Shown: piece after piece, positions 1 to 36,672 of the stretch
How positions within the stretch are numbered: position 1 is the first letter of the stretch
Layout: every line of letters starts with the position of its first letter
From: a virus
Strand: one strand, 5' to 3'
Length of the DNA stretch: 43,229 nt
IMG/VR virus record: IMGVR_UViG_3300046820_000897
Location: 1 to 43,229 of that record
Made by a program: the position numbers and the translations under genes
The notes under the pieces: model-generated
The model's database searches: none
What the model was told of the DNA's origin: nothing
What the model saw: only the letters and a program-made list of their open reading frames with translations

Positions 1-227
1 CAGGTATTTATGACAACTACGAAAGCACTGCAACAAACATTTGCAGATTGTTTACTAAAGTTGTAGACGCTGAAGGTAATGAAGTACCTGGCGAGGAAGT
101 TTCTGCATCAAACCTTGACATTAATGGCCAGGACTACATTAATTGGGGAGACCAACCCGCAATGAGTATAAATGCTTGGATTTATCAGTGGTCAGCGGAT
201 AAATTAAATTTAGTAATTTTACATTAA
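1..227 (+). CDS. 3' end of small post-fibre protein (copy A, cut by window start)
   Basis: This is the open reading frame tail of a 99-residue protein; the first complete codon is at base 3 and the stop at 225-227. It is base-for-base identical to the last 74 codons of the complete copy at 34459-34758, which lies directly after the tail fibre gene. The start is missing because the window begins inside the gene. Function is unknown. Its position between fibre and lysis genes suggests a small tail-associated or fibre-chaperone protein, which is inference only. Confidence 0.8.
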   Translation, partial: GIYDNYESTATNICRLFTKVVDAEGNEVPGEEVSASNLDINGQDYINWGDQPAMSINAWIYQWSADKLNLVILH

Positions 228-237
228 ATTAAATACT

Positions 238-369
238 ATGACACTTGTAGAACTGAAGGCATCCGCTTATGATTGTTTAGCACAGATTGAGTACTTGCAA
301 AAGCAATTGCAAGAAATCAACCAAAAGATTGCAGAAGAACTCCAAAAAGAGAAAAACGAAAATGGATAA
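238..369 (+). CDS. 43-residue coiled-coil peptide, first gene of lysis cassette A
   Basis: A short frame starts MTLVELKASAYD and continues into a Q/E/K-rich amphipathic stretch (residues 14-40) that reads as one helix or coiled coil. It overlaps the next gene by 8 bases. An identical copy lies at 34769-34900. It has no membrane segment. Preservation of start, stop and overlap in both cassettes supports a real gene. I do not recognise a family; a small cytoplasmic phage protein is the most I can say. Confidence 0.6.
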   Translation: MTLVELKASAYDCLAQIEYLQKQLQEINQKIAEELQKEKNENG

Positions 370-637
370 AAAGATTAGTGCATTACCGATTTCATTTGAG
401 CAGTTCAGTAAAGACCCAGTAAAAGGTTTTCTGTTCATTACATTAATCGCGATTGGTTACTTATATGTTGACCAAAAGTTAATGTACACCGAGCAAATTG
501 AAAGTCAAGGTTCAAAGATAGAGAAGTTAGAAGCAAAGATTGATGCACTTGGAATACAACTCAAGAGGTCTGATTCATTGCTCTCTGCAACCACATCTAA
601 AATCTTAGTCCTTCAAGAACTCGGTAAAATCAAATGA
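362..637 (+). CDS. i-spanin-like membrane protein (copy A)
   Basis: The protein has 91 residues from the ATG at 362. An upstream in-frame start at 287 exists, but its extra residues are just the preceding gene read in another frame. One membrane segment sits at about residues 21-37 (GFLFITLIAIGYLYV), followed by a periplasmic coiled coil with heptads around SKIEKLEAKIDALGIQL. This is the Rz-like inner-membrane spanin layout, and the next gene, overlapping by 4 bases, encodes a lipoprotein as Rz1 partners do. The copy at 34893 is identical in protein but differs at silent sites. The spanin role is inferred from topology and context; a membrane-anchored holin regulator is the alternative. Confidence 0.6.
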   Translation: MDKKISALPISFEQFSKDPVKGFLFITLIAIGYLYVDQKLMYTEQIESQGSKIEKLEAKIDALGIQLKRSDSLLSATTSKILVLQELGKIK

Positions 638-987
638 AACGATTAATTGCTATACTATTTATATCATCATGTGCTAACCCTATCAAGGAGGAGAAAGTCC
701 TTTTTGATGGGGTTGACACTATCCTAATGCAATCAAAGGAACATATTGACACAGTTGTTAAGTTCCTACCAAAAGTTGACAAGCATATAGAGAAAGCAGA
801 GAAGGAAGTCTTGAGCAATGTGCAAAGCATCAAATTGCAAAATGCTAAACTCAAAGAGGATGCCAAAATAGTCAAGACAATTACCATAAGGGATACCATC
901 ATCATCAAGGAAAAGACTAATTTTTGGGGCAAGAAAAGAACCTCTACTGACTCCATTACAACAATAGATTCAACTGAACAACAATGA
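634..987 (+). CDS. Outer-membrane lipoprotein, o-spanin-like (copy A)
   Basis: The protein has 117 residues. It begins with a short signal peptide ending in a lipobox (ISSC, acylated Cys at residue 13), so the mature protein should be anchored in a lipid bilayer. The rest is charged and helical (residues 35-90), ending in a strand-rich TITIRDTIII segment and a hydrophilic tail. It overlaps the i-spanin-like gene upstream and the holin-like gene downstream by 4 bases each. With the upstream protein it could form a two-component spanin joining inner and outer membranes during lysis. The family is not recognised by sequence. Confidence 0.6.
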   Translation: MKRLIAILFISSCANPIKEEKVLFDGVDTILMQSKEHIDTVVKFLPKVDKHIEKAEKEVLSNVQSIKLQNAKLKEDAKIVKTITIRDTIIIKEKTNFWGKKRTSTDSITTIDSTEQQ

Positions 988-1202
988 AGCAATTTTTTTG
1001 TGAAGAAAACGGCAGACTATCAATGAAAAGGTTATGTGGATTTATCTGTGTGATCATCATCTGCGTTACAATGTATCATAACTCTTTCTATGAAACTGAA
1101 CCAAGTGAGGCACTTGTTTACTCTGTGTCTGCTCTTGCATTTGGGTGCCTTGGTTTGACATCTGCTGAGAAAATATTCAAGAAGGATGAGAACAAAGATT
1201 GA
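984..1202 (+). CDS. Holin-like protein with two membrane segments (copy A)
   Basis: The 72-residue protein has hydrophobic segments at about residues 17-32 (CGFICVIIICVTMY) and 44-60 (VYSVSALAFGCLGLTSA), a short loop between them and a charged C-terminus (KKDENKD). Size, two-segment topology and position three genes upstream of the peptidase fit a class II holin, which would make inner-membrane holes that trigger lysis. A second ATG at residue 14 could give a shorter product, as in dual-start holins. The copy at 35515 is identical in protein. Called by topology and context, not by family signature. Confidence 0.6.
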   Translation: MKQFFCEENGRLSMKRLCGFICVIIICVTMYHNSFYETEPSEALVYSVSALAFGCLGLTSAEKIFKKDENKD

Positions 1203-1677
1203 TGCACCAACATTGCTACTTATTGCAATTGCATTGCTTTTGTTATTCCTTTGGGTAACATCTTGCAATCCAGTAAAGCGAGTTCTCAACAATCAAGAGA
1301 TGTTGGAAGAAGTAGCAAAGGTTGTGGTAAAGGGAGGATGGTGTGCTTCAGACACTACATTCATTGTAAAATCAGACACCTTAATTGAGGTTGATACTTT
1401 GGTGAGGATTGATACCCTTACCGATACCTATGTACTAAATGATACAACCTACATAACCAAGTGGAAAACAAGGGACATCACCAAGTCAATCACCATTCAC
1501 GATACCATTAAGTCATTCATCGTTGATAATGCTCGTGTGAGATTATTACAAGCTGATTCAGCACGTTTAACAACTGAGGTAGGTGAATGGAAAGGAAAAG
1601 CAAATAATCGTTTATCTTGGTTAATATCACTTCTTATCATCATTGGAGTATTTATATATTTAAAACTTAGGAAATGA
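1186..1677 (+). CDS. Unimolecular-spanin-like protein (copy A)
   Basis: The 163-residue protein has an N-terminal lipoprotein signal (LLLLFLWVTSC, lipobox VTSC, Cys27) and a C-terminal membrane segment (about residues 144-160, LSWLISLLIIIGVFIYL) followed by LRK. A lipidated N-terminus plus a C-terminal inner-membrane anchor is the defining topology of u-spanins such as phage T1 gp11. The periplasmic part is rich in spaced Asp-Thr pairs (SDTL, VDTL, IDTL, TDTY, NDTT), suggesting beta strands, as u-spanins have. It overlaps the holin-like gene by 17 bases and the peptidase by 4. Copy B at 35717 is about 90 percent identical by eye. Confidence 0.7.
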   Translation: MRTKIDAPTLLLIAIALLLLFLWVTSCNPVKRVLNNQEMLEEVAKVVVKGGWCASDTTFIVKSDTLIEVDTLVRIDTLTDTYVLNDTTYITKWKTRDITKSITIHDTIKSFIVDNARVRLLQADSARLTTEVGEWKGKANNRLSWLISLLIIIGVFIYLKLRK

Positions 1678-2141
1678 AATTGTCGGAACACCTTGACCTA
1701 TCGGAAGTAATCCGGTCTGAATCAGCAAAAAGAAAAGGAATAAGCAATATGCCAACACCAGAGCATATTGAGAACTTTAAATTATTGGCAGAAAAGATAT
1801 TCCAACCAATTAGGGAACATTTCAGATGCCCTATCCACATCTCATCTGGTTACAGATCAAAGGCGCTGAATGATACGATTCCAGGGGCATCTTTGACCTC
1901 ACAGCATTGTCAGGGCGAAGCGATAGATATAGATATGGATGGCACACCAAATGGTGTAACAAATAGAATGGTGTTTGATTACATCAAGGATAACCTTGAG
2001 TTTGATCAGCTTATCTACGAATTTGGTGATGCAAATAATCCAGACTGGGTACACGTTTCCTACGAGTCAAGCGGTAAACAAAGAAAGCAGATACTAAGAG
2101 CAGTTAGAACTAACGGCAAGACTTCGTATCTGCCTTATTAA
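1674..2141 (+). CDS. M15-family peptidase, phage endolysin (copy A)
   Basis: The 155-residue protein has the conserved marks of the Peptidase_M15 (VanY/D-Ala-D-Ala carboxypeptidase-like) fold: ISSGYRSKALN at about 57-67, the zinc motif SQHCQGEAIDIDMDG at about 75-89 (His and Asp ligands), and DWVHVSYE near 123-130 (third His ligand). These enzymes cut peptidoglycan cross-links or stem peptides. There is no signal peptide, so it would reach the wall through holin lesions. It is the last gene of the cassette and is followed by a terminator. Copy B at 36205 carries the same motifs, with a variable loop before the zinc motif. Confidence 0.9.
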   Translation: MKLSEHLDLSEVIRSESAKRKGISNMPTPEHIENFKLLAEKIFQPIREHFRCPIHISSGYRSKALNDTIPGASLTSQHCQGEAIDIDMDGTPNGVTNRMVFDYIKDNLEFDQLIYEFGDANNPDWVHVSYESSGKQRKQILRAVRTNGKTSYLPY

Positions 2142-2166
2142 GGCCAGAGCATAATGATTGTTTTCA

Positions 2167-2194
2167 CCCCCTTATGTCTATGAGGGGGTTTTTT
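2167..2194 (+). terminator. Rho-independent terminator after lysis cassette A
   Basis: A C5 run (2167-2171) pairs with a G5 run (2184-2188) around a 12-base AT-rich spacer, directly followed by six T (2189-2194). It lies 26 bases after the peptidase stop and ends the late transcript. Confidence 0.85.
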
Positions 2195-2222
2195 AATATT
2201 ATTAAAAAAAATATATATCAAC

Positions 2223-2256
2223 TTTGTGTTTTGTATATAAAACCTATATATATTTG
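2223..2256 (+). promoter_or_regulatory. Bacteroidota-type early promoter
   Basis: TATATTTG at 2249-2256 matches the -7 box TAnnTTTG. TTTG at 2223-2226 is a -33 candidate with a 22-base spacer. The site lies just after the terminator and 17 bases before the HTH gene, at the expected start of early transcription. Confidence 0.55.
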
Positions 2257-2272
2257 CTAAAACAATAACACA

Positions 2273-2470
2273 ATGAAAGAAATTAGAGAACTAAGAAAAC
2301 AAAAGGGGATAACCCAAGAAAAGCTTGCATACCTAAGTGGTGTCACTACCGTAACAGTCAACAGAGCAGAAAACTCTGGTAAGATGCGCCAAAGCACTTA
2401 TATCAAATTGGTCAACACATTAAACACACTCCAAGATGCTGTATCTATGCCTGTTAATTCTGGGTTGTAG
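2273..2470 (+). CDS. Small HTH (XRE/Cro-like) regulator, module A
   Basis: The 65-residue protein has a classic HTH_3 helix-turn-helix at residues 3-50: KQKGITQEKLAYLSGVT, then TVTVNRAENS as the recognition helix. It is the first gene after the early promoter, so it probably controls early transcription. Early module B carries a related protein at 38284-38454 (TQEKLAELSG, TINRAEKSGK). It is far shorter than a CI-type repressor and has no dimerisation or cleavage domain, so a Cro-like role is more likely than lysogenic repression. Confidence 0.8.
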   Translation: MKEIRELRKQKGITQEKLAYLSGVTTVTVNRAENSGKMRQSTYIKLVNTLNTLQDAVSMPVNSGL

Positions 2471-2774
2471 TTTGGTGGGAATAGTATTGAAAAATTATGA
2501 CAAGTTATCCTCACAAGAAATGGTACAACGCAGAACCTTATACCAAATCCCGTCAGCATTTTGGGATGAGTACAACTCAATCACCCTTGACATCTACTAT
2601 ATGTCAAACGCAAGCGCAGAAGCCATCAGATACAAAATTGAGGATTTTGAGTACAAATATGCTCAAACAATTGACCAAAGCGTTTACAACGATAGGATGG
2701 CAGACATTCTCTCCTCTTACAAAAAGAAGCAAGAATTTTTAAACAATAAAACAAAGCAAAATGGGACTAACTAA
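2436..2774 (+). CDS. Small membrane-anchored hypothetical protein
   Basis: The 112-residue protein starts with a hydrophobic segment (MLYLCLLILGCSLVGIVL) containing a possible lipobox-like LGC at about residue 11. A charged helical region rich in Tyr and Asp follows. It overlaps the HTH gene by 35 bases and the SSB-like gene by 14 bases, both in other frames, consistent with the tight packing of this module. The function is not recognised. The start is uncertain, since no internal ATG would keep the hydrophobic segment. Confidence 0.5.
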   Translation: MLYLCLLILGCSLVGIVLKNYDKLSSQEMVQRRTLYQIPSAFWDEYNSITLDIYYMSNASAEAIRYKIEDFEYKYAQTIDQSVYNDRMADILSSYKKKQEFLNNKTKQNGTN

Positions 2775-3333
2775 CAGTCAAGGCGGATCAAAAGTGTTTT
2801 TATCAATTAGCAATGGCAAGCTTGTAAGAAGCTTCAAAGAAAAGACAGAGGGCGCGGTATCTCGTGTCAACAAAGCCGGTCGCGAAGTATTTGAGATGTT
2901 CTATGACTCTCTTGAGGGGATAATCAAAGAAGTTGGAACAAAAGAGTCCGACTATGGCAAATTCTTGGTAGTACAAGTTGAGTCAAATGGTGTAAACTAT
3001 CAGCTTGAGATGAACTTCTCATCTGGTTACTCAGCATCTTTTCTCAAGACCCTTCCAAATGTCAACCTATCGCAAAGGGTTCAAATCACCCCAAAGCTTA
3101 CAATTGAGGGTGACAAGAAAAAAAGTATATGCTTCCTCAACCAAAATGGTAGTGGCTTAAAGTGGGCATTCACAAAGGACAATCCAAATGGTATGCCTGA
3201 CCTGGTAAAGATCAAAGTAAAAGGCAAGGACACTTGGGATGACTCAGATAGGATGGAGTTCCTTGAGAACTATGCTAAAGGTTTATTTGGTGGCTCTAAA
3301 GCACCAGTTATTGATGATGAAGTTCCTTTTTAA
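2761..3333 (+). CDS. Single-stranded DNA-binding-like protein
   Basis: The 190-residue protein is strand-rich in residues 10-125 and ends in an acidic tail (IDDEVPF) like the C-terminal tip that SSB proteins use to recruit partners. It sits directly upstream of the recombination-type exonuclease. T7 gp2.5-type and other phage SSBs combine an OB fold with such a tail; I infer the OB fold only from strand-rich sequence. It should coat single-stranded DNA during replication and recombination. An unrelated short protein in module B (40125-40388) ends in the same kind of tail (EDQELPF). Confidence 0.6.
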   Translation: MGLTNSQGGSKVFLSISNGKLVRSFKEKTEGAVSRVNKAGREVFEMFYDSLEGIIKEVGTKESDYGKFLVVQVESNGVNYQLEMNFSSGYSASFLKTLPNVNLSQRVQITPKLTIEGDKKKSICFLNQNGSGLKWAFTKDNPNGMPDLVKIKVKGKDTWDDSDRMEFLENYAKGLFGGSKAPVIDDEVPF

Positions 3334-3384
3334 ACCAAATGGAGTGGGCATATTGCTCACTCCTTACTTTTTTAAATACAAAAT

Positions 3385-4137
3385 ATGCAAAATTTCAACA
3401 TTGACATCAACAAAGGCCGGATTGAGTTCGTGGACAATCGGTTTTATGCTACTGAGAACGGCAATTATGTCCCATCAGTCACCACAATTTTAGATGCATA
3501 CCCAAAAGACGCAGCTTTCTTTAAATGGCTCAAAGATGTGGGTCAAGATGCTGACACCATTCGTGATGAGGCTGGTAGGAGAGGATCACTTGTGCATGAA
3601 CTGACTGAGCAGTACGATCAACACCAAGAAGTGACATTTGTCAACCAACATGGAAAGCCTAAGTACAAGATGCTTGAATGGGCGATGTTTGAGAGATATG
3701 TTGACTTCTGCAATACCCAGAGTCCAAAGATGCGAATGATGGAGATGCACTTCTCGTCTGATGTGCTTGGGTTTGCCGGCACAGTTGACAGAGTACTTGA
3801 GATAAATGGCAAAGAGTACCTGGTTGACATCAAGACATCCAACAATATGCACAACTCGTATTGGCTACAATTGGCAGCTTATAATGAGCTACTAAAGGAA
3901 TATGACTACCATGTTGATGGGGTTGCTATATTGTGGCTTAATGCCAAGACAAGGACTGCCGGAAAGGGAGGAGCAATACAAGGCATTGGTTGGCAACTAC
4001 TGACCAGGACACTTGAGGAGTCAGCACAAGATTGGAAAACATTCCAAACAACATTTCAACTCTGGAATTCAATCAATGAGGACATCAAGCCAAAGCGCAC
4101 ATCTTACCAAATAACACATCAGAAGAATGAAGGATAA
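3385..4137 (+). CDS. PD-(D/E)XK exonuclease, RecB/Cas4-like
   Basis: The 250-residue protein shows the ordered motifs of the PD-(D/E)XK RecB-type nuclease family: RGSLVHEL at 66-73 (His71), AGTVDRV at 131-137 (Asp135), LVDIKTS at 146-152 (Asp148, Lys150) and the QLAAY motif at 162-166. Proteins like this resect DNA ends in phage recombination or degrade host DNA. It follows the SSB-like gene with a 51-base gap and overlaps the next gene by 11 bases. No iron-sulfur Cys cluster of the Cas4/AddB type is evident. Confidence 0.85.
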   Translation: MQNFNIDINKGRIEFVDNRFYATENGNYVPSVTTILDAYPKDAAFFKWLKDVGQDADTIRDEAGRRGSLVHELTEQYDQHQEVTFVNQHGKPKYKMLEWAMFERYVDFCNTQSPKMRMMEMHFSSDVLGFAGTVDRVLEINGKEYLVDIKTSNNMHNSYWLQLAAYNELLKEYDYHVDGVAILWLNAKTRTAGKGGAIQGIGWQLLTRTLEESAQDWKTFQTTFQLWNSINEDIKPKRTSYQITHQKNEG

Positions 4138-4315
4138 AATAGTAGAGCAAGTGGTGAACAAGTTTAACGAAAGGTCACAAAGAGGCATTACAAAGTATGG
4201 GTCAACCTTAGAGAGAAATGATCTTGATGTTGTAGATTGGATGAACCACTTGCAAGAGGAGTTAATGGATGCCATCCTTTATTTAGAACGAATGAAAAAA
4301 GACATCAATGGGTAG
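4127..4315 (+). CDS. Small MazG-like phage protein
   Basis: The 62-residue protein carries RGITKYGSTLERNDL followed by WMNHLQEELMDAILYLERM. That second block resembles the helix with paired acidic residues (EE..D) of all-alpha NTP pyrophosphohydrolases, and the 'KYG.TL ... W..HLQEELMDA..YLE' pattern recurs in small phage proteins. It is too short for a full MazG fold alone and would need to oligomerise. It may act on a nucleotide substrate. The family link is from memory of the pattern. Confidence 0.55.
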   Translation: MKDKIVEQVVNKFNERSQRGITKYGSTLERNDLDVVDWMNHLQEELMDAILYLERMKKDING

Positions 4316-4640
4316 CTCAGTTGTATCATGTATCCATCACCTAAAGCTTGCTGATGAGTATGCAAAGGACTTTGTTCGTGCCAACCCTGGCACTCGTGGC
4401 TCAGCAATCTTTGCCAATTATTCGTTAAAGCTAAATTGGATACTACGAGATGTTGTAACTTACCCTCACTTTGATGATGATGTGAGAGAAGGGATGAGAA
4501 AGGAGATTGCATCTGATGCATTTTCCTATGACTCACTGACTGAGAAGCTTGCACTTCTTAACCCTGATCAACGTGAGGAACTTGATGGACTTTTGACTGA
4601 TATTTTGAAAGGAAAAACAATTGAAGTAATAATCAAATAA
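4308..4640 (+). CDS. Hypothetical protein, 110 residues
   Basis: A helical, soluble protein with no signal or membrane segment and no recognised motif. It overlaps the MazG-like gene by 8 bases, and its C-terminal half is acidic (NPDQREELDGLL). The frame is real by length, codon pattern and tight packing. It probably belongs to the same early transcript as the exonuclease. Function unknown. Confidence 0.6.
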   Translation: MGSSVVSCIHHLKLADEYAKDFVRANPGTRGSAIFANYSLKLNWILRDVVTYPHFDDDVREGMRKEIASDAFSYDSLTEKLALLNPDQREELDGLLTDILKGKTIEVIIK

Positions 4641-4645
4641 ACACA

Positions 4646-4900
4646 ATGCAAAAACAAAAAATACATACTCAAACAGCAGTTGAATGGTTATGGAATGAAA
4701 TAGATAATTTAATACCATATCAAGATATTAATAAAGCAGAAAAATTTATTGAATTGCTTAAAGAGGCCAAAGAAATTGAGAAAGAGCAAATTGAGGAAGC
4801 ATTCAGTATTGGTGAAATGAACAATGATTCACACCATTATACTGGCAGGAAAATACACAAAGATCAAGCAGATTACTTCAACAAAACATATGCCAAATGA
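4646..4900 (+). CDS. TAVEWL-family small protein 1
   Basis: The 84-residue protein has two recognisable blocks: TAVEWLWNEIDN near the N-terminus and AKEIEKEQIEEAFSIGEM in the middle. The same two blocks recur in 5461-5712 and 6255-6488, so this window holds three paralogues. Small proteins of this pattern recur in Bacteroidota phage and mobile DNA, but I know no function. It ends in an ATGA overlap with a 30-codon frame. Confidence 0.65.
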   Translation: MQKQKIHTQTAVEWLWNEIDNLIPYQDINKAEKFIELLKEAKEIEKEQIEEAFSIGEMNNDSHHYTGRKIHKDQADYFNKTYAK

Positions 4901-4989
4901 CACCTTACGAACTTTGGCAACTTGAAACTTATGGCAACTATTACGAAGAAGATGAAACGCAACATGATGTTGAATCCGATTTGGATTAA
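4897..4989 (+). CDS. 30-residue acidic peptide
   Basis: An ATGA overlap with the preceding stop opens a 30-codon frame: MTPYELWQLETYGNYYEED, then an acidic end (ESDLD). It is too short to identify. The start overlap is typical for this phage. No equivalent is visible in module B. It overlaps the zinc-ribbon gene that follows. Confidence 0.4.
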   Translation: MTPYELWQLETYGNYYEEDETQHDVESDLD

Positions 4990-5113
4990 ATGCCGATGCT
5001 GTAAATCTTTATACACAATAACACTAAAAAAACAATCACTATGTCCAAAATGCAATTGCCTAAATGGGTTGATATGTCAACCTACGAAAGACACAAACTC
5101 CTTGGAGAGTTAA
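4967..5113 (+). CDS. Small zinc-ribbon protein (copy A)
   Basis: Residues MLNPIWIKCRCCKSLYTI are followed about 16 residues later by LCPKCNC, giving two CxxC knuckles as in a zinc ribbon. The start at 4967 (or 4964) is chosen because module B has a clear homologue (37602-37727, IWVKCRLCKSLYTI, CPRCHCLNG) that begins at the matching place. The 3' end overlaps the next gene by 73 bases in another frame; the same arrangement exists in module B. It may bind nucleic acid or a protein partner. Confidence 0.6.
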   Translation: MLNPIWIKCRCCKSLYTITLKKQSLCPKCNCLNGLICQPTKDTNSLES

Positions 5114-5295
5114 TTGATGCCATGATCTACTCTGGCGAAGCCGTACAACACCTCAAAGTAACTGTTGAGCAGTTCAGATTGATGGGGTATGTTAGGTCGG
5201 TAATCTTGCCTCAAAATGAGCCTGATGAGGTATGCCCAGACTGCGATGGCAAAGGATGCGATAATTGTACATTCGTAAAACCAAGTGAACTATGA
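5041..5295 (+). CDS. Small protein with fused CxxCxGxGCxxC zinc motif (copy A)
   Basis: The 84-residue protein has two parts. Residues 1-60 (LPKWVDMSTYERHK to VRSVILPQNE) are nearly identical to the 62-residue protein at 37691-37879. The C-terminal part (VCPDCDGKGCDNCTF) is a DnaJ-like CxxCxGxG zinc motif that in module B ends a separate protein (37876-38103). So this is either a fusion or the ancestor of a split. The ORF starts inside the zinc-ribbon gene in another frame. Function unknown. Confidence 0.7.
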   Translation: MSKMQLPKWVDMSTYERHKLLGELIDAMIYSGEAVQHLKVTVEQFRLMGYVRSVILPQNEPDEVCPDCDGKGCDNCTFVKPSEL

Positions 5296-5450
5296 AGAAG
5301 TGTTCAAAATGCAAAAAAGAAAAGCCAAAGTCTGAGTTCTATGTCAGCAACAGAAGGCTTGATAAGCTTGCGGTCTATTGCAAAGACTGCGAGAAGAAAG
5401 GAAGAAAGAAAAAGGAAGATGAATACGCAAGCCTTTATGGTTTGATTTAA
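5292..5450 (+). CDS. CxxC zinc-finger protein, 52 residues (copy A)
   Basis: MKKCSKCKKEKPKSEFYVSN and then YCKDCEKKGRKKK give two CxxC knuckles about 25 residues apart in a very basic protein. This resembles the small HNH-like/zinc-finger 'CxxCxxxKPxxxF' proteins common in phages, but the catalytic HNH residues are absent. It overlaps the preceding gene by ATGA. Module B has the homologue at 38100-38264 in the same order. Nucleic-acid binding is likely. Confidence 0.7.
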   Translation: MKKCSKCKKEKPKSEFYVSNRRLDKLAVYCKDCEKKGRKKKEDEYASLYGLI

Positions 5451-5460
5451 AAAAAATAAC

Positions 5461-5712
5461 ATGGCACAACAAAAAGAAAACATGACCGCTGTTGAGTGGT
5501 TAGAATATTTACATAGAGAAGAAATACTTATTAAAAAGTCTTTTGAAATGGCAAAACAAAAGGAGAAAGAGCAAATAGATAATGCTTGGTTAAATGGGTT
5601 CGGGAAAGTAATTGAGGAACAAAAGTATTGGAACGGATTTATTTTAGGCATATTCGTAGGAGGTATTTTGGGTATTATAGTTGTTAGGTTAGTAGACAAT
5701 GGTATATTATAA
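5461..5712 (+). CDS. TAVEWL-family small protein 2, membrane-tailed
   Basis: The 83-residue protein starts MAQQKENMTAVEWLEYLHRE, contains AKQKEKEQIDNAW, and ends in a strongly hydrophobic segment (FILGIFVGGILGIIVVRLV, about 60-78). It is the only one of the three paralogues with a membrane anchor, which suggests that the shared part binds something which is then held at the inner membrane. That is inference. Confidence 0.65.
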   Translation: MAQQKENMTAVEWLEYLHREEILIKKSFEMAKQKEKEQIDNAWLNGFGKVIEEQKYWNGFILGIFVGGILGIIVVRLVDNGIL

Positions 5713-5725
5713 AAACAAATAAACA

Positions 5726-5923
5726 ATGGCACAATGTAAATGTTGCGAAAGAGAAAAAGAGTTAAGATTTGGATTTTGTTTCGACTGCGCAGATGCTGAA
5801 TCTGTAGTAGCAGATGGTGTGGATATGTATGATAATGAAATTATCAAAGAAAATGATATGTCAACATCAATGTCTAAAGTGAAATGGATACTTAAAAAAT
5901 TCAATGTAATTATAAACAAATAA
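5726..5923 (+). CDS. Small Cys-rich protein
   Basis: The 65-residue protein has an N-terminal CKCCEREKELRFGFCFDC pattern, two CxxC pairs about 13 residues apart that can make one zinc site. An acidic middle and a basic C-terminus (KVKWILKKFN) follow. It is preceded by the repeated start context AAATAAACAATGGCACAA seen at several genes here. Function unknown. Confidence 0.6.
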   Translation: MAQCKCCEREKELRFGFCFDCADAESVVADGVDMYDNEIIKENDMSTSMSKVKWILKKFNVIINK

Positions 5924-5926
5924 ACT

Positions 5927-6082
5927 ATGGAACAACAAACGAAAATTGACGCAGCTATTCAAGAGATTAAATATAAAATTGAATTAGCGGAAAGGGAGTA
6001 TCAATCTGCTGTCACTAAGATTAATACTCTTAGAGATGTACTTGATAATCTTGATAAGATTAAACGAGAAAAATTGCAATAA
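5927..6082 (+). CDS. 51-residue coiled-coil peptide
   Basis: The frame MEQQTKIDAAIQEIKYKIEL continues as one long amphipathic helix to NLDKIKREKLQ. It starts in the repeated context AAATAAACTATGG and ends one base before the next ATG. No membrane segment or Cys. It is likely a small coiled-coil adaptor; function unknown. Confidence 0.6.
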   Translation: MEQQTKIDAAIQEIKYKIELAEREYQSAVTKINTLRDVLDNLDKIKREKLQ

Positions 6083-6083
6083 C

Positions 6084-6251
6084 ATGGCACAACAAACAGA
6101 ACAAAAAAAAGCAATTGGATGGTATTGTATTGGTCATGCAGGGTTCAATAACACCACTGCATTCGCTACTTACTACAAGCCTAATGCTATCAAAAGATTC
6201 TTTATGAGAACTCTTTTGGATTTTTATTGGATTAAAGATGAAAACAAATAA
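6084..6251 (+). CDS. Hypothetical protein, 55 residues
   Basis: The start is placed at ATG 6084 (MAQQTEQKKAIGWYCIGHAG) rather than an upstream in-frame start at 6036 that would lie inside the previous gene. The MAQQT start resembles those of 5461 and 6255. The C-terminus is aromatic and basic (IKRFFMRTLLDFYWIKDENK). Function not recognised. Confidence 0.55.
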   Translation: MAQQTEQKKAIGWYCIGHAGFNNTTAFATYYKPNAIKRFFMRTLLDFYWIKDENK

Positions 6252-6254
6252 ACT

Positions 6255-6488
6255 ATGGCACAACAAACAGCAGTTGAATGGTTTTTTAAATGGTTTAACG
6301 ATAATCAAGAAGCTACACATAAGCAATATGCTAAAGCATTTGAACAAGCAAAAGCAATGGAGAAAGAGCAGCTTTGGTATAGTAAAGAAGATGTATTAAA
6401 AGCGGGAGAAATTGGAGAAATAAATCATCACGATTATAAACACATTGTTTCATTATTAGATGAAGCAAGAGAAATAAATAACAAATAA
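6255..6488 (+). CDS. TAVEWL-family small protein 3
   Basis: The 77-residue protein starts MAQQTAVEWFFKWFNDNQ and contains AKAMEKEQLWYSKEDVLKAG, so it is the third paralogue of the family at 4646 and 5461. The C-terminal half resembles the region after the EKEQ block in other members. The gene begins three bases after the previous stop. Confidence 0.65.
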   Translation: MAQQTAVEWFFKWFNDNQEATHKQYAKAFEQAKAMEKEQLWYSKEDVLKAGEIGEINHHDYKHIVSLLDEAREINNK

Positions 6489-6511
6489 CATTACAACAAA
6501 AAATACACAAA

Positions 6512-6733
6512 ATGAACACAGCTATCTCAGAATTGATGAAAGACTTGGTGCAAAATGGTATGCAAGTTGACTTTGCGAAGTATTTACAAATGGAACGTGA
6601 TCAGATACAAAATGCCGTAATCTACGGACTTGATGAAGATGGTCATACCGGAAATTGGAAACTATCAGTCGCACAAAACTACTACAATGAAAAGCACCTT
6701 GAGATTAAGGGATTATCAGGAGGAGATAAGTAA
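6512..6733 (+). CDS. Hypothetical protein, 73 residues
   Basis: The sequence MNTAISELMKDLVQNGMQVD continues through FAKYLQMERDQIQNAVIYGL to a short polar tail. 'L..ERDQIQNAV.YG' suggests a distant echo of the EKEQI block of the TAVEWL family. It overlaps the helicase start by 47 bases in a different frame. Function unknown. Confidence 0.5.
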   Translation: MNTAISELMKDLVQNGMQVDFAKYLQMERDQIQNAVIYGLDEDGHTGNWKLSVAQNYYNEKHLEIKGLSGGDK

Positions 6734-7937: not shown

Positions 7938-8101
7938 AAACAATCCCTTACATCCTAATGGTAATTTATTTTTTCATTGTATCAATTCCCATATTTATCA
8001 TTATTTTTATCATCACTCACACATTTTATACACTTAAAAACACAACACAATGCATCAAAAAAAGACTCACTCAATCTCTGAGTACATCCAAGGCAACTTA
8101 G
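7934..8101 (+). CDS. Membrane micropeptide with VSIP motif (module A)
   Basis: An ATGA overlap with the helicase opens a 55-codon frame with a very hydrophobic segment at residues 6-29 (YILMVIYFFIVSIPIFIIIF). The tail (NTTQCIKKRL) is basic and overlaps the next gene. A similar 36-residue peptide at 40803-40913 has YFIFVSIPVAIIVHLL in the same membrane position. Retention in both early modules suggests a small inner-membrane phage protein. Function unknown. Confidence 0.5.
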   Translation: MKTIPYILMVIYFFIVSIPIFIIIFIITHTFYTLKNTTQCIKKRLTQSLSTSKAT

Positions 8102-8265
8102 ATAGGAAGAACGTAAGATGGCGGTTAAAAGATGGAGAATGGATGTTTGAGATCCATCCTAAGATTTGGGGGTCAGAGGAGATGTTTGACCTATATTACC
8201 CATCTTATGAGTACATCAAATTCAATGATAAAGGAAGCAATCCTGATAAAACTAAGATAAAATGA
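8050..8265 (+). CDS. Hypothetical protein, 71 residues
   Basis: A soluble protein beginning MHQKKTHSISEYIQGNLDRK, with WRLKDGEWMFEIHPKIWG in the middle and a basic tail. It overlaps the membrane micropeptide upstream in another frame and the methyltransferase downstream by ATGA. No family recognised. Confidence 0.6.
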   Translation: MHQKKTHSISEYIQGNLDRKNVRWRLKDGEWMFEIHPKIWGSEEMFDLYYPSYEYIKFNDKGSNPDKTKIK

Positions 8266-8882: not shown

Positions 8883-9151
8883 AAGAATCAACACTCCAGA
8901 CAAAGATAAGTAACCGATTAAAAGAGCATGGGTGGTTTGTGACAAAGCTGATCAGCACCTCAACACCTGGGATTTGCGACTTGATGGCGATACGCAAAGG
9001 CACAGTCATAATGCTTGAGGTCAAGACTGACACCGGAGTTGTGTCTGAACTGCAACAATACATGATTGACAAGCTTAATGCAATGGGCATTTTTGCTCGT
9101 GTGGTTAGGGATGTTAGCGATGTGGATGTTTTTTGCTATAAACTACAATAA
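8879..9151 (+). CDS. VRR-NUC domain nuclease (module A)
   Basis: The 90-residue protein is a single VRR-NUC domain: STPGICDLMAIRKG (28-41, Asp34), MLEVKTDTG (45-53, Glu47 and Lys49) and the SELQQYMIDKL helix. Phage proteins of this type act as structure-specific nucleases, for example on Holliday-like junctions. It lies between the methyltransferase and the primase. Module B has its own VRR-NUC at 42695-43000, diverged in sequence. Confidence 0.85.
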   Translation: MKESTLQTKISNRLKEHGWFVTKLISTSTPGICDLMAIRKGTVIMLEVKTDTGVVSELQQYMIDKLNAMGIFARVVRDVSDVDVFCYKLQ

Positions 9152-9153
9152 TT

Positions 9154-12472: not shown

Positions 12473-12487
12473 GATTTTTGTTTTGTT

Positions 12488-23388: not shown

Positions 23389-23390
23389 AG

Positions 23391-24855: not shown

Positions 24856-24861
24856 AATAAA

Positions 24862-25293: not shown

Positions 25294-25295
25294 TT

Positions 25296-29995: not shown

Positions 29996-30618
29996 TGGCA
30001 GATACATTAAAAGCTGAAGGGTTAGTTATAACGGCAACATATAGCAATGGTGATGTGTTCCCTTTTGCTTGTGCCAAAAGCTCAACTATAAATGTAAGCA
30101 GAGATTTCATTGAACTTGCTCCTAAGACAAGTGGATATTACAGAGAATATATAATTGGTAGAACTGGGTTTACAATTAGTGGCAGTGGGTTGATAAAACT
30201 TGCTCAGAGCTTTATGCAACCATTCTACTTCTTTGACCAATTTGTCCTTAATACAGATACCAAGTTCAAGGCTTATCTTGATATGATTGACAATCAAAAT
30301 AATTATAAAGTTTATAAATTTGATTGTATAATGCAAGATTTGACTCTTGACTCAACAATTGGAGCCACACCTACTTATGACTATACTTTACAAGGTACTG
30401 GCCCGATAGAACTTATTAACATTGTTGACCAGGCGGTTGTGGCAAGTGGTGTGATAACGGGAAGGAATCCTGCTAACTTTAAACTCACAGCAGTTGGTTA
30501 CAGAGGTCAATGGTATTTTAATTATACTGTGACTGAGCCATCATCCGGAGTATTTGTTATATCACTTGGAGCAGCACTAAATGGGGTGACAGTCACTGCA
30601 TCATATTTATCTTTATAA
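29995..30618 (+). CDS. Tail-tube-like tail protein, 207 residues
   Basis: The protein has INVSRDFIELAPKTSGYYRE, YIIGRTGFTISGSGLIKL and YKFDCIMQDLTLDSTIGATP, an order resembling tail-tube (TP901-1-type) monomers. As the true tube gene lies at 24862, this may be a distal-tail ring or minor tube protein. A C-terminal domain (about residues 155-207, GYRGQWYFNYTVTEPSSGVF) is added. Function is inferred. Confidence 0.6.
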   Translation: MADTLKAEGLVITATYSNGDVFPFACAKSSTINVSRDFIELAPKTSGYYREYIIGRTGFTISGSGLIKLAQSFMQPFYFFDQFVLNTDTKFKAYLDMIDNQNNYKVYKFDCIMQDLTLDSTIGATPTYDYTLQGTGPIELINIVDQAVVASGVITGRNPANFKLTAVGYRGQWYFNYTVTEPSSGVFVISLGAALNGVTVTASYLSL

Positions 30619-30643
30619 TCATAATAAATCTTAAATTTACAAT

Positions 30644-30982
30644 ATGATAGGCGAACATAATTTAAGGGCAATAAAGAGGGGTGATACATGGGCATTACCA
30701 TTATCATTTTGGGAAGATGAGTGTCAAGAGGTGGCGATTAATGTAAGTACATATACTTTTAAACTTATGGCAAAGAATAGCTCAGGCACTACAATTTTTA
30801 CATGGAATGATGCTATTTTTGTTCAAGGTGCTACTAATGAGAGGACAGTCACATTGAGTGGTGTCACAACTGCTACTTATGCTCTTGGTGAGTTCAACTA
30901 CGAACTCCAAGTTACTACTGGTTCTGGTGTATTTACATGGATGCAAGGCTTTGTCCAAGTTGTTGATCAAATAACAAGTTAA
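30644..30982 (+). CDS. Small baseplate-like protein (BppU N-domain-like)
   Basis: The 112-residue protein starts MIGEHNLRAIKRGDTWALPL, followed by FKLMAKNSSGTTIFTWNDAI and YELQVTTGSGVFTWMQGFVQ. 'I.RGDTW.L...' and 'L.AK...G..I..W' recall BppU-type baseplate N-terminal domains that dock receptor-binding proteins. It ends two bases before the fibre gene, so it may link the fibre to the tail tip. Confidence 0.6.
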   Translation: MIGEHNLRAIKRGDTWALPLSFWEDECQEVAINVSTYTFKLMAKNSSGTTIFTWNDAIFVQGATNERTVTLSGVTTATYALGEFNYELQVTTGSGVFTWMQGFVQVVDQITS

Positions 30983-30984
30983 CG

Positions 30985-33900
30985 ATGGTAATCAAGATTA
31001 ATTATACAAGTAGTGATGTGTATGTCAGCACATCAGTCTCACCCGTTTATGTGGTTGTGAATTATAGTGCTGTGAACAATGGCGGTGGTGCGGTTTGGGG
31101 TGGCATTACGGGGACACTTAGTGACCAGACTGATTTGCAAGATGCTCTTGATGACAAAGTGCCTTATACGGGTGCTATTGCAAATGTTGATCTTGGTGAG
31201 TATGAGCTGAAGGCCGGTCAACTTACCCTTGACGTATCTCCAACCGGCACGGCTGCGGTAGGTACAACTCGTTGGAATAACACAATAGGCAGCAGCGAAA
31301 CAACTCTGAAGGGTGGTAGCGTTATTCTAAAGAATGGCGTTGACTTGGTCGCAAGGATTGTCAATAAGGTTACACCGAATACTACACTAACAAAGGCAGC
31401 ATACCAAGCGGTAAGAGTAAGCGGTGCGCAAGGTCAGAGGTTAGCGGTGGCATTTGCTCAAGCGAATAACGATGCAAATAGTGCTGACACGATAGGACTT
31501 GTTACCGAAACAATACCAACAAATCAAGAGGGGTTTATTATCACAGTTGGGCAGATTGAGAACATCAACACAACGGGTAGTCTACAAGGTGAAACGTGGG
31601 CAGATGGTGATGTACTTTATCTTTCTCCTACAACTCCTGGTGCAATTACAAAGGTCAAACCAACGGGTGCAGGTCATATCGTAGTAATCGGATACGTTGA
31701 GTATGCTCACGCAAACAATGGCAAGATATATGTCAAGGTGATGAACGGATGGGAGTTGGATGAACTACATGATGTTAGCATTACATCAGTAGCAAACAAT
31801 GAGGCACTAATCTACGAATCAAGTTCTCAACTTTGGAAGAACAAGACAATAGCAACCGCATTAGGATTCACACCCGTTCCAACCACACGCACACTAACCA
31901 TCAATGGCACATCGCTTGATTTATCATCCGATAGGTCATGGACAATCGCAGCAGGAATAACGGGTAGCGGTGCAACGGGACAGGTTGCATATTGGAATGG
32001 AACGAGTTCACAGACGGGGAGTGCAGGATTGGTCTATAATGATTCTACGGGGTTAATGACTTTGAGCAAAAATCAAAATGCTGTTACTGAATTATTGGTT
32101 AGCAACACAACATCGGGAACTGCATCTGCTTCAAATATTAGACTAACATCAGATGCTTCAGCAGGGAATGGTGGAATTTCTAAAAATTCAACTAATATAA
32201 CACCATACAAAATTGTTGCATCAAAAGATTTGTCAATCTATAACACCTCAACGGGTGGAGATATTGCAATACTAAATGATTTTGCAACGGGCAATATTAA
32301 ATTTGCAGCAGGTGCATCCTCAACCGCACAAATGACATTACATAGTAATGGGAATTTAACGGCAAGAAGTACACTACCATCAACATTAGGAGCATCAAGT
32401 TTTAATTTTTTCTTGGGGTTATCGGGATTAATAGGTGCGAGTGCAACAATTAATGATATTAGTATAAATAACAATGCATATTTTAATGGAACAAATGTTA
32501 TTTATAAAAATAATGGTACTGCATCTAATTTGTATTTTGATAGTTCAGGAAACATTGGATTTTCAACTGCACCAAGTGGAACTGCTGGTGGTATTGTAAC
32601 ATTTACAGAAAGGTTTAGATTATTTAATACGGGTAATCTCCTCCTCCAAAACGGAGGCACATTCACCGATGGCGGTCAGCGTTTGCAGGTGATTGGTGAT
32701 GCGTTTATTAGGGGGAGTGGAAGCATTGCATTAGAAATTCAAAATAGTAGCGGTGTTTCATTAGCACAATTTAGGGGTGATACCCGTTTAACACTTGGGG
32801 GGAAAATTGATATAGGACTAACCAATACTGCATTTAATGCCTATTCAAATTCACTTAACATATTAGGTATAATTCCATCGGCATCTTGGGCAACAGAAGG
32901 TACGGGTGTTTGGGTTTTTGACAGAGCAGCATCATCAACAAGTGGTACATTAAGGCAAATTAGATTTGGAGGTATTGGTAGTGGTTTTGCTCCGTCAAGT
33001 GGAACTGCAACACATACACATTTAGAAATCAATTCCACCATCAACCAAACAGGCGGTGCTAACGGCATCACTCGTGGATTGTACGTTAACCCTACCCTCA
33101 CCGCTGCTGCTGATTGGCGTTCAATTGAATGGTCAAACAATAGCGGTTGGGGATTGTATGGGGCGGGGACTGCGCCGAACTTTCTTGGGGGGAACTTGAC
33201 TGTGAGTAGGAATCAGAATGGGGGAACAATAATAACTGTTTCAAATACTACAAGCGGAAATAATAGTCAATCGGGATTAGTTATAACTTCTGATAGTTTA
33301 TCGGGTAATGGATATTTCGCAAAGTATTCATCTGCAAAAACAGCATACAAAATAGTTAATGCAAGTGATTTTTATTTAATCAATGATACGGCAGGTGATA
33401 TTTCTATCCTAAATGATTGGAGCAGTGGTAAAATAAAGTTTAGCGGAGGTGCAGCATCAACCGCCCAAATGACCCTCACCGCAGCAGGGCGATTGCTTTT
33501 GGGGACAACGACAGAGGGAACACAAATTCTACAAGTAAATGGTGATGCCTATATAAAAGGAACGGGAACAACAAGTGCAACAAATGCTTTATTAGTTCAA
33601 AATAGTGCTGGTAATACTACATTTCAAGTTTTGAATGCTGGTGGTATTTTAGTTCATGATCCATCATTTAATCAAGCCTTGCAAATAAATGGAATTGCTG
33701 GTTCACAAGCAATGGCAATAGGATCTATTGGTTCGTATGCTAATGCTTCTGGTTCTGGCGCTACGGCTATTGGAAGAACCGCAAATGCTTCTGGCGCACA
33801 ATCTGTATCATTAGGGATTCAATCAACTGCGTCTGGACTAACCGGAATTGCAATCGGTTATTTATCTGTTGCAAATAGTTCTTATGGTATTGCTTTAGGT

Positions 33901-34440
33901 TTTCAAGCAAGTTCTGGTTTTGGTACATATTCAATAGCATTTAATGCTCAAGCAAATGCATCAAATCAATTTGTCGCCGGTCAAATAACAGATGTTTATT
34001 TTGGTAGTGGTGTAAGAACATATAACACTAATGGATTAAGTTATACAATTCATGGAAGCGGTGGCGGTACAAATACAAGTACTGCTGGTGGTGATATTAC
34101 TATCGCTGGCGGTAAAGGTATAGGAACACAAGAACCGGGAAGGGTATATTTCGCAACTCCTATAAAAAATGCAACTAACGTATTGCAAACATTAGTAAAT
34201 AGATTTGCAATTATTCAAGATACGGGGAATGTTGTTATACAAAATGGTGGAACTTTTACAGATGAATTATCATCCAGATTAACAGTTAATTCAACTACGC
34301 AAGGTTTTTTAACTCCTCGCATGACAAATGCGCAAAGATTGGCAATAAGCAGTCCGGCAATTGGATTAGAGGTTTATTGTACGGATATGGTTGAAGGTAA
34401 ATACATTTACAAATCAACGGGGTGGACATTCATCATATAA
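30985..34440 (+). CDS. Tail fibre / receptor-binding protein with YadA-like repeats
   Basis: The 1151-residue protein has an N-terminal attachment part (GGAVWGGITGTLSDQTDLQD), then WELDELHDVSITSVANNEAL, then two diverged copies of a repeat at about residues 360-452 and 740-835 (SKNQNAVTELLVSNTTSG and SRNQNGGTIITVSNTTSG). Residues about 912-992 carry YadA/Hia-head-like short repeats (SGSGATAIGRTANASGAQSV). The end (QGFLTPRMTNAQRLAI, WTFII) is typical of Bacteroidota fibre C-termini. It binds the host receptor. Confidence 0.85.
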   Translation: MVIKINYTSSDVYVSTSVSPVYVVVNYSAVNNGGGAVWGGITGTLSDQTDLQDALDDKVPYTGAIANVDLGEYELKAGQLTLDVSPTGTAAVGTTRWNNTIGSSETTLKGGSVILKNGVDLVARIVNKVTPNTTLTKAAYQAVRVSGAQGQRLAVAFAQANNDANSADTIGLVTETIPTNQEGFIITVGQIENINTTGSLQGETWADGDVLYLSPTTPGAITKVKPTGAGHIVVIGYVEYAHANNGKIYVKVMNGWELDELHDVSITSVANNEALIYESSSQLWKNKTIATALGFTPVPTTRTLTINGTSLDLSSDRSWTIAAGITGSGATGQVAYWNGTSSQTGSAGLVYNDSTGLMTLSKNQNAVTELLVSNTTSGTASASNIRLTSDASAGNGGISKNSTNITPYKIVASKDLSIYNTSTGGDIAILNDFATGNIKFAAGASSTAQMTLHSNGNLTARSTLPSTLGASSFNFFLGLSGLIGASATINDISINNNAYFNGTNVIYKNNGTASNLYFDSSGNIGFSTAPSGTAGGIVTFTERFRLFNTGNLLLQNGGTFTDGGQRLQVIGDAFIRGSGSIALEIQNSSGVSLAQFRGDTRLTLGGKIDIGLTNTAFNAYSNSLNILGIIPSASWATEGTGVWVFDRAASSTSGTLRQIRFGGIGSGFAPSSGTATHTHLEINSTINQTGGANGITRGLYVNPTLTAAADWRSIEWSNNSGWGLYGAGTAPNFLGGNLTVSRNQNGGTIITVSNTTSGNNSQSGLVITSDSLSGNGYFAKYSSAKTAYKIVNASDFYLINDTAGDISILNDWSSGKIKFSGGAASTAQMTLTAAGRLLLGTTTEGTQILQVNGDAYIKGTGTTSATNALLVQNSAGNTTFQVLNAGGILVHDPSFNQALQINGIAGSQAMAIGSIGSYANASGSGATAIGRTANASGAQSVSLGIQSTASGLTGIAIGYLSVANSSYGIALGFQASSGFGTYSIAFNAQANASNQFVAGQITDVYFGSGVRTYNTNGLSYTIHGSGGGTNTSTAGGDITIAGGKGIGTQEPGRVYFATPIKNATNVLQTLVNRFAIIQDTGNVVIQNGGTFTDELSSRLTVNSTTQGFLTPRMTNAQRLAISSPAIGLEVYCTDMVEGKYIYKSTGWTFII

Positions 34441-34458
34441 ACTTAAAATAAAATAAAA

Positions 34459-34758
34459 ATGGCAAAACAAATCCAACCCATCAATGTATGGGTAAATGGC
34501 GAAGAAAAGACGGCAGAATTTTTATCGGTAACAGGTATTTATGACAACTACGAAAGCACTGCAACAAACATTTGCAGATTGTTTACTAAAGTTGTAGACG
34601 CTGAAGGTAATGAAGTACCTGGCGAGGAAGTTTCTGCATCAAACCTTGACATTAATGGCCAGGACTACATTAATTGGGGAGACCAACCCGCAATGAGTAT
34701 AAATGCTTGGATTTATCAGTGGTCAGCGGATAAATTAAATTTAGTAATTTTACATTAA
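34459..34758 (+). CDS. Small post-fibre protein (complete copy)
   Basis: The 99-residue protein begins MAKQIQPINVWVNGEEKTAE and contains TKVVDAEGNEVPGEEVSASN, with a C-terminal WIYQWSADKLNLVILH. It is strand-rich and has no signal peptide. It follows the fibre after 18 bases and may be a fibre chaperone or tail accessory protein. The same gene's end opens the window (1-227), identical in sequence. Confidence 0.75.
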   Translation: MAKQIQPINVWVNGEEKTAEFLSVTGIYDNYESTATNICRLFTKVVDAEGNEVPGEEVSASNLDINGQDYINWGDQPAMSINAWIYQWSADKLNLVILH

Positions 34759-34930
34759 ATTAAATACTATGACACTTGTAGAACTGAAGGCATCCGCTTA
34801 TGATTGTTTAGCACAGATTGAGTACTTGCAAAAGCAATTGCAAGAAATCAACCAAAAGATTGCAGAAGAACTCCAAAAAGAGAAAAACGAAAATGGATAA
34901 AAAGATTAGTGCATTACCGATTTCATTTGA
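34532..34930. repeat. 399-bp exact repeat of the window start
   Basis: These bases equal 1-399 of the window without mismatch, covering most of the post-fibre gene, the coiled-coil peptide and the start of the i-spanin-like gene. The first difference is at 400 (G) versus 34931 (A). Beyond it the two copies stay homologous but differ often. Confidence 0.95.
34769..34900 (+). CDS. 43-residue coiled-coil peptide (copy B)
   Basis: Identical in DNA and protein to 238-369, opening lysis cassette B. It overlaps the following gene by 8 bases. See copy A for features. Confidence 0.6.
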   Translation: MTLVELKASAYDCLAQIEYLQKQLQEINQKIAEELQKEKNENG

Positions 34931-35168
34931 ACAGTTCAGCAAAGACCCAGTTAAAGGTTTTCTGTTCATTACATTGATTGCGATTGGTTACTTATATGTA
35001 GACCAAAAGCTGATGTACACCGAGCAAATTGAGAGTCAAGGTTCAAAGATAGAGAAGTTAGAAGCAAAAATTGATGCTCTTGGGATACAACTCAAGAGGT
35101 CTGACTCATTGCTCTCTGCCACAACATCTAAAATCTTAGTCCTTCAAGAACTTGGTAAAATTAAATGA
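34893..35168 (+). CDS. i-spanin-like membrane protein (copy B)
   Basis: The 91-residue protein has no amino-acid change from copy A, but many third-codon bases differ from position 34931 onward (for example GAG/GAA, AGT/AGC, GTA/GTT). One membrane segment precedes a coiled coil. Silent change with no protein change shows strong purifying selection. It overlaps the lipoprotein gene by 4 bases. Confidence 0.6.
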   Translation: MDKKISALPISFEQFSKDPVKGFLFITLIAIGYLYVDQKLMYTEQIESQGSKIEKLEAKIDALGIQLKRSDSLLSATTSKILVLQELGKIK

Positions 35169-35518
35169 AACGATTAATTGCTATACTATTTATTTCATCA
35201 TGTGCTAACCCTATCAAGGAGGATAAACTTATTCTTGATGGGGTTGACACTATCCTGATGCAATCAAAGGAACATATTGACACTGTTGTGAAGTTCCTCC
35301 CAAAGGTTGATAAGCATATTGAGAAAGCAGAGAAGGAAGTCTTGAATAATGTTCAAAGCATAAAATTGCAAAATGCTAAACTCAAAGCAGATGCCAAAAT
35401 AGTCAAGACAATTACAATTAGAGATACTATCATCATTAAGGAAAAGACTAATTTTTGGGGTAGGAAAAGAACCTCTACCGATTCAATATCAACAATAGAT
35501 TCAACTGAACAACAATGA
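35165..35518 (+). CDS. Outer-membrane lipoprotein, o-spanin-like (copy B)
   Basis: The 117-residue protein keeps the lipobox (ISSC, Cys13). Compared with copy A, substitutions lie at residues 20-24 (EDKLIL versus EEKVLF) and a few later positions (S to N, E to A, K to R, T to S). The layout and the 4-base overlaps are the same as in cassette A. Confidence 0.6.
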   Translation: MKRLIAILFISSCANPIKEDKLILDGVDTILMQSKEHIDTVVKFLPKVDKHIEKAEKEVLNNVQSIKLQNAKLKADAKIVKTITIRDTIIIKEKTNFWGRKRTSTDSISTIDSTEQQ

Positions 35519-35733
35519 AGCAATTCTTTTGTGAAGAAAACGGCAGACTATCAATGAAGCGTTTATGCGGTTTTATCTGCGTGATAATCATTTGCGTTAC
35601 AATGTACCACAATTCATTCTACGAGACTGAACCAAGTGAGGCACTTGTTTACTCTGTGTCTGCTCTTGCTTTTGGGTGCCTGGGGTTGACATCTGCTGAG
35701 AAAATATTCAAGAAGGATGAGAACAAAGATTGA
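35515..35733 (+). CDS. Holin-like protein (copy B)
   Basis: The 72-residue protein is identical to the cassette A copy. It has two hydrophobic segments, a charged tail and a second in-frame ATG at residue 14. Many codons differ silently between copies, so the amino-acid sequence is under strong constraint. Confidence 0.6.
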   Translation: MKQFFCEENGRLSMKRLCGFICVIIICVTMYHNSFYETEPSEALVYSVSALAFGCLGLTSAEKIFKKDENKD

Positions 35734-36208
35734 TGCACCAAGGTTGTTGCTCATTGCAATTGCATTGCTTTTGTTATTCCTTTGGGTAACATCTTGCAAT
35801 CCAGTTAAGCGAGTTCTGAACAATCAGGAGATGCTTGAGGAAGTGGCAAAGGTTGTTGTTAAAGGTGGGTGGTGTGCAAATGATACCACCTTTGTTGTCA
35901 AGTCAGATACCTTGGTTGAGGTAGATACATTGGTGAGGATTGATACCCTTACCGATACCTATGTCTTAAATGATACAACCTACATCACCAAGTGGAAAAC
36001 AAGGGACATCACCAAGTCAACCACAATACATGACACCATCAAGTCCTTCATTGTTGACAATGCCCGTGTGAGGTTATTACAAGCTGATTCAGCACGTTTA
36101 ACGGGTGAGGTGATACAATGGAAAGGGAAGGCAGATAGTCGCTTAAACTGGTTGATATCACTTTTACTTGTAATTGCATTATTCATTTATTTAAAACTTA
36201 GAAAATGA
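35717..36208 (+). CDS. Unimolecular-spanin-like protein (copy B)
   Basis: The 163-residue protein has the lipobox VTSC (Cys27), spaced Asp-Thr strands and a C-terminal membrane segment (LNWLISLLLVIALFIYLKLR). About 16 substitutions separate it from copy A, clustered around residues 128-157. It is the most diverged membrane protein of the cassette. The overlap pattern is as in cassette A. Confidence 0.7.
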   Translation: MRTKIDAPRLLLIAIALLLLFLWVTSCNPVKRVLNNQEMLEEVAKVVVKGGWCANDTTFVVKSDTLVEVDTLVRIDTLTDTYVLNDTTYITKWKTRDITKSTTIHDTIKSFIVDNARVRLLQADSARLTGEVIQWKGKADSRLNWLISLLLVIALFIYLKLRK

Positions 36209-36672
36209 AATTATCTGAGCATCTTGATTTGTCAGAAGTAGTAAGGTCAGAATCTGCAAAGCGTAAAGGCATCTCAAATATGCCAACTGCTGAACACATT
36301 GCAAACTTTAAAATACTTGCAGAGAAGGTATTTGAACCAATAAGGCAACATTTTAGATGCCCTATACATATCTCAAGTGGTTACAGGTCCAAAGAGTTGA
36401 ATCAAGCGGTTGGGGGAAGTAGTTCTTCACAACATTGCACGGGTGAGGCGATTGATATAGATATGGATGGAACACCGAATGGAATAACTAACAGAATGGT
36501 CTTTGATTATATCAAGGATAACTTAGAGTTTGACCAACTTATATATGAGTTCGGAGATTCTAATAATCCTGATTGGGTACACGTTTCTTATGAAACTACT
36601 GGTAAGCAGAGAAAACAAATACTGAAGGCATCAAGGGTAAACGGGAAAACAACTTACTCACCTTATAAATAA
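36205..36672 (+). CDS. M15-family peptidase, phage endolysin (copy B)
   Basis: The 155-residue protein has the M15 motifs: ISSGYRSKELN, SSQHCTGEAIDIDMDG and DWVHVSYE. The loop before the zinc motif differs from copy A (QAVGGSS versus DTIPGASLT), and the C-terminus ends YSPYK. The catalytic set is intact in both, so both should be active peptidoglycan peptidases. Confidence 0.9.
   Translation: MKLSEHLDLSEVVRSESAKRKGISNMPTAEHIANFKILAEKVFEPIRQHFRCPIHISSGYRSKELNQAVGGSSSSQHCTGEAIDIDMDGTPNGITNRMVFDYIKDNLEFDQLIYEFGDSNNPDWVHVSYETTGKQRKQILKASRVNGKTTYSPYK

Follow-up and report, generated by a model that had tools for sequence, protein, structure and literature searches.

The window, which is the entire IMG/VR record IMGVR_UViG_3300046820_000897 (43,229 bases), carries two lysis cassettes on the plus strand, where the other modules described below also lie. 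The first opens at the very start of the contig (1–399) and continues from base 400 with small membrane or lipoprotein genes, ending in an M15 endolysin gene at 1674–2141. The second, whose diverged part spans 34931–36672, ends in an endolysin gene at 36205–36672. The endolysin matches M15 peptidases (Pfam PF08291, 2e-19; PHROG 894 'endolysin', 6.5e-37), which makes the lysis label given to these genes in the original prediction a reasonable one, while the small membrane genes can be called only putative holin or spanin genes. Direct comparison within the window confirmed that bases 1–399 equal 34532–34930 exactly. Past base 399 the homology extends to ~2102/36633 at 88.6% identity overall, with the identity per 100 bases dropping along the cassettes from ~93% to 71–75%; with the identical run set aside, the cassettes are ~86% identical (85.7%). 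After base 399 there are 0.13 differences per base and every later identical run is shorter than 60 bases. At such a density, a 399-base identical run has a chance of ~1e-24.

The left edge of identity is the contig end itself, because base 1 falls inside a 99-aa gene, truncated here, whose full copy lies at 34459–34758. Gene order and overlaps are preserved between both cassettes, as had been predicted, but the predicted count of six genes becomes seven in-frame genes if a 43-aa ORF at 34769–34900 is included. The prediction that the differences from base 400 are mostly silent held for the first genes (17/0, 20/11 and 18/0 silent/other codon differences) and was weaker for the later ones (50/25 and 36/15). 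Recombination had been offered to explain the sharp identity edge and is not needed for it: 1–399 and 34532–34930 are most simply explained as a single locus read twice.

Bases 1–34531, which we call unit A, contain a lysis cassette, early and replication genes of one type (A-type), and terminase, portal, protease, major head protein, tape measure and tail genes. The early region (2273–12472) encodes an HTH regulator, a PD-(D/E)XK nuclease, a ResIII helicase, a primase/helicase and a DnaA C-terminal-domain protein, an order repeated in five relatives (G021, G024, G053, G058 and G063). The structural module (15921–34440), with PHROG matches to terminase, portal, protease, major head protein and tape measure, ends in an 1151-aa tail protein. 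Two of the relatives are closed: G021 (33,222 bases, 25-base exact end repeat, unit of 33,197 bp) and G024 (34,400 bases, 121-base exact end repeat, unit of 34,279 bp). In G021 the terminase reading frame, with an intein-like insert inside, passes the contig ends as one uninterrupted frame, which confirms the closure. Both closed genomes are colinear with the window over the structural genes and the tail, past the 34531→1 join, and on through the cassette to the A early genes from 2147, and each has one cassette. Unit A likewise closes on itself inside a gene. Its order is also seen in G058, G063 and G059, and in G053 with a more diverged cassette. Given these colinear closed relatives, the best reading of 1–34531 is a complete circular genome 34,531 bp long, in support of the earlier suggestion that the distance between the cassettes equals the length of such a genome.

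Unit A has several features of its own. A 59-base exact direct repeat occurs at 12924–12982 and 13315–13373, 391 bases apart, and is predicted to fold into two hairpins closed by GGTTAA...TTAACC (-21 kcal/mol). Contigs L353 and L351 have the same repeat pair, ~388 bases apart; over the stretches shown, the two copies match one another and differ from those of the window, and both arms of the first stem have changed (CATGGC/GCCATG vs CGGTG/CACCG). The repeat had no match in Rfam, and it is possibly an undescribed structured element held identical within each genome. Adjoining the pair, on the minus strand, is a gene for a Gp88 family protein (13680–14558; PF17338, 3e-34; PHROG 1617), one of the few substantial minus-strand ORFs of unit A. 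In G021 and G024 the terminase large subunit has an in-frame insert of ~300 residues with intein-like ends (CFTG...HN before S), positioned in the ATP-binding loop (GGSR/SGKT); the window terminase (15921–17066) has no insert and is 96–99% identical around the insert site. The gene-start motif ATGGCACAACAAACAGCAGTTGAATGGTT (MAQQTAVEW) is present, whole or in part, at short A early ORFs (4670, 5449, 5709, 5914, 6078 and 6242), and a search with the 6220–6300 copy returned 23 matches in related loci.

The DNA that follows the second cassette is of another kind. The region 36673–43229, cut by the contig end, is an early region of a second type (B-type), with a Rad52-like gene (38989–39708), a replication-initiator-like gene (41288–42034) and a VRR-NUC-like gene (42695–43000). 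From 34437 to 43229 the window is colinear with G035, a relative of 33,235 bases whose 127-base exact end repeat closes it into a circle of 33.1 kb; 5.8 kb of this stretch aligns at 88.6%, and the second cassette corresponds to G035 11617–13305. DNA comparison shows no match between the structural genes of G035 and the A structural genes, and what the two have in common is limited to one small early gene, the cassette and the tail end. Within the window, DNA homology between 1–34531 and the remainder is confined, beyond the cassette, to one small gene (4976–5216 vs ~37626–37866, 77%), and at the protein level the A and B early regions have just this gene in common. A and B thus share their tail end and lysis genes despite different replication modules: a primase/helicase and a DnaA C-terminal-domain protein in A, an O-like replication initiator and a Rad52-like protein in B. 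Both early regions occurred together in none of the relative loci fetched for this comparison, the five apparent cases having only 331–370 bases in the A set.

The B genome continues in another IMG/VR contig, from IMG taxon 3300046820, the presumed source of the window. The window ends (43103–43229) in 127 bases that are identical to the first 127 bases of G050 (IMGVR_UViG_3300046820_000267, 27,552 bases), used reverse-complemented. The ORF cut at the window end, which begins at 42991, extends in frame through this overlap to encode a 171-aa protein. G050 then tracks G035 from 21543 via the G035 origin to 11971, that is, through the B structural genes back to the cassette start. Window 34845–43229 and G050 together make a B unit of 35,810 bp, near the 29.8–35.4 kb of the closed relatives, all of which are single units. 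Several closed relatives also have end repeats of 127 bases, a length typical of assembler k-mers. With the overlap, the in-frame ORF and the colinearity with G035 taken together, G050 and the window most likely represent adjacent edges in a single assembly graph.

To find relatives, IMG/VR was scanned with the endolysin, tail, Rad52-like and terminase proteins, which returned hundreds of them; the longer ones were located as whole records and 45 of these were compared end to end. Two M15 endolysin genes were found in none of the 46 long relatives searched first, and exactly one in 27 of the 46. Contigs of 49–69 kb were considered as possible dimers; none had more than one M15 copy and none matched the A terminase. 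Exact end repeats were present in 12/45 relatives, and in ten (G001, G013, G017, G023, G031, G038, G042, G045, G046 and G054) the ends overlap themselves in diverged form, over 138 bases to ~2.6 kb at 87–99% identity. The doubled places in these ten vary (early genes, Rad52-like gene, portal, tail, cassette), and this scatter over the genes argues that they reflect where contigs end and not a fixed biological duplication. Judged by their sequences, the ten are probably complete circles missed by a test for identical ends. Such a circularity test would label complete genomes as linear and keep their over-run ends. Outside IMG/VR, megablast of window 1–25000 against named phages gave no match, and the nearest named phages by terminase (Bacteroides and Thermoanaerobacterium phages) share only ~35% protein identity. 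Scanning 85k bacterial and archaeal genomes with the terminase turned up no relative, and there is thus no sign in these genomes of a prophage origin.

Where the two genomes meet, the shared cassette start is read a second time (34531–34931), and the path leaves A for B at or before 34931. A contig from another assembly, L020 (IMGVR_UViG_3300043419_000201, IMG taxon 3300043419), passes through the same place. It is identical to window 250–6092, and left of 250 it matches the tail tip of G050, identical across 589 bases. L020 therefore runs from the B tail tip into the A early genes, the reciprocal of the window, which runs from the A tip into the B early genes. Window A, window B and L020 agree in all of the 150 bases 250–399 (=34781–34930), which form the common core of a cassette start with at least two left flanks and at least two right flanks. 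Since the A tip and the B tip (G050/L020) lead in and the A and B early regions lead out, this is a shared crossing point. That the contig starts at base 1 hints at one more left branch in this position; exact patterns from window 1–42 and from across 34531/34532 were found in no other IMG/VR contig, and a third left branch was not found. Another contig from the L020 taxon, G047, was considered as the missing piece and turned out to be a different phage.

Among relatives, the cassettes contain exact runs of 340–1750 bases amid 84–92% identity elsewhere, and the tail-tip allele does not track the early-region type. An attempt to assign the left flanks to A or B by tail-tip similarity failed, both types having B-like tips. 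With tip alleles independent of early type, tip linkage cannot tell which left flank belongs to which early region. By these patterns, tail tips and cassettes recombine among these phages.

We consider it very likely that the record is a mis-join of the complete circular phage A with the first 8.3 kb of a related phage B, and that its two lysis cassettes are no true duplication. Two related dsDNA phages, of ~34.5 kb (A) and ~35.8 kb (B), would have lived in one sample, with genomes that assemble as circles (circularly permuted or circular DNA). If the two were nearly identical at the start of the lysis cassette, their circles would share a node and form a figure eight. A short-read de Bruijn assembler could have circled A once, returned to the shared start (1–399 = 34532–34930) and exited along B, failing to close circle A. 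The path would have ended 8.3 kb on, after entering the next edge by a single k-mer (127 bases); that edge was deposited separately as G050, and the '88% second cassette' would be B's own sole cassette. This account builds on what was observed directly: how the sequences relate to one another, that closed relatives exist for both types and are colinear with the parts, and that the window end overlaps G050 by 127 bases. Each part has complete, separate counterparts (closed A types G021 and G024; B type G035), from which we infer that the A and B strains of the sample were complete genomes as well. The join lies in common sequence at least one k-mer long (399 identical bases, 150 of them also in L020), and the second genome goes on in a contig that overlaps by k. 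The chimera, one of the options left undecided by the original prediction, is thus supported by the closed relatives and by G050, which completes the second genome; the switch was presumably made by the assembler and not by a natural recombinant molecule.

The main counterpoint to a chimera comes from L020, as its crossing and that of the window, taken at face value, describe one 70-kb circle. A real molecule of 70.3 kb, with A and B fused head to tail via their cassettes (a cointegrate or concatemer from mixed infection) and hence two cassettes, would be closed by the A-tip-to-B-early path of the window and the B-tip-to-A-early path of L020. In an assembly graph, however, any two circles with a common node also allow a reading as a single large circle, and window 1–249 puts the A tip allele upstream of the A early region, which this model forbids. 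With the closed relatives all single units and no pair of cassettes in the 46 long relatives, we regard such a molecule as highly improbable. Very unlikely, too, is the wider proposal that sequence is truly and repeatedly exchanged at the junction, whether in a 70-kb head-to-tail A–B fusion or in a pair of phages frequently trading tail tips at the cassette start. A natural recombinant with the A tail tip and B early region, present beside separate A and B so that the junction at 34531–34931 is real in some virions, is unlikely but deserves more weight: cassette starts are exchanged among relatives, as the long exact runs show, tip alleles do not follow early types, and L020 is the reciprocal combination in another assembly. 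Against it, exact patterns from the tip sequence of the window matched no other IMG/VR contig and the junction was seen only once. Such a recombinant is compatible with an assembly chimera, and the 43-kb contig as one genome is unsupported either way.

The two other options of the original prediction fared worse. For a true duplication of the lysis cassette in one phage genome of 43 kb or more, the copies are contiguous in the record and both have intact frames that differ mostly at silent sites. Copy 2 nevertheless leads into a second early region belonging to another circular genome type and, via G050, into a second structural module, and no long relative has two M15 genes, making this reading extremely improbable. 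Tandem or permuted copies of a single genome would account for a spacing equal to the unit length of A, yet a second pass through one genome would show no differences, and here the second copy is ~14% different outside the identical run and is followed by an unrelated early region; we give this reading almost no weight.

Benchmarks have documented, as an error of assembly, chimeric contigs formed between similar viruses that occur together (Roux et al., 2017, PMC5610896). According to CheckV (PMC8116208), k-mers of the assembler are the likely origin of odd end-repeat lengths, and some IMG/VR contigs contain concatenated genome copies. The window resembles these chimeric and over-run contigs (PMC5610896, PMC8116208) in that similar co-occurring viruses appear joined at a shared stretch, and in having a unit length plus extra sequence with k-mer-length end overlaps. 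The duplicate-content test of CheckV looks for one sequence that recurs (PMC8116208); the extra 8.3 kb here comes from a diverged relative, and that test would probably miss the over-run. The IMG/VR phages of the A type (G021, G024, G053, G058, G063) and the B type (G035, G001, G045, G039) share its gene order, at ~71–92% DNA identity over matching modules, but each has one early region and no second cassette. In permuted phages such as T4, terminal-redundancy heterozygotes occur, the redundancy being a few percent of one genome. Diverged unit ends could arise in this way in mixed infections; unlike such a redundancy, the second part of the window is 8.3 kb long and leads into a different genome.

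The record is best handled as a circular unit A (1–34531) and a B fragment (~34845–43229) that belongs with G050. For the phages themselves, the shared cassette start marks the place where they swap tail tips and early modules.
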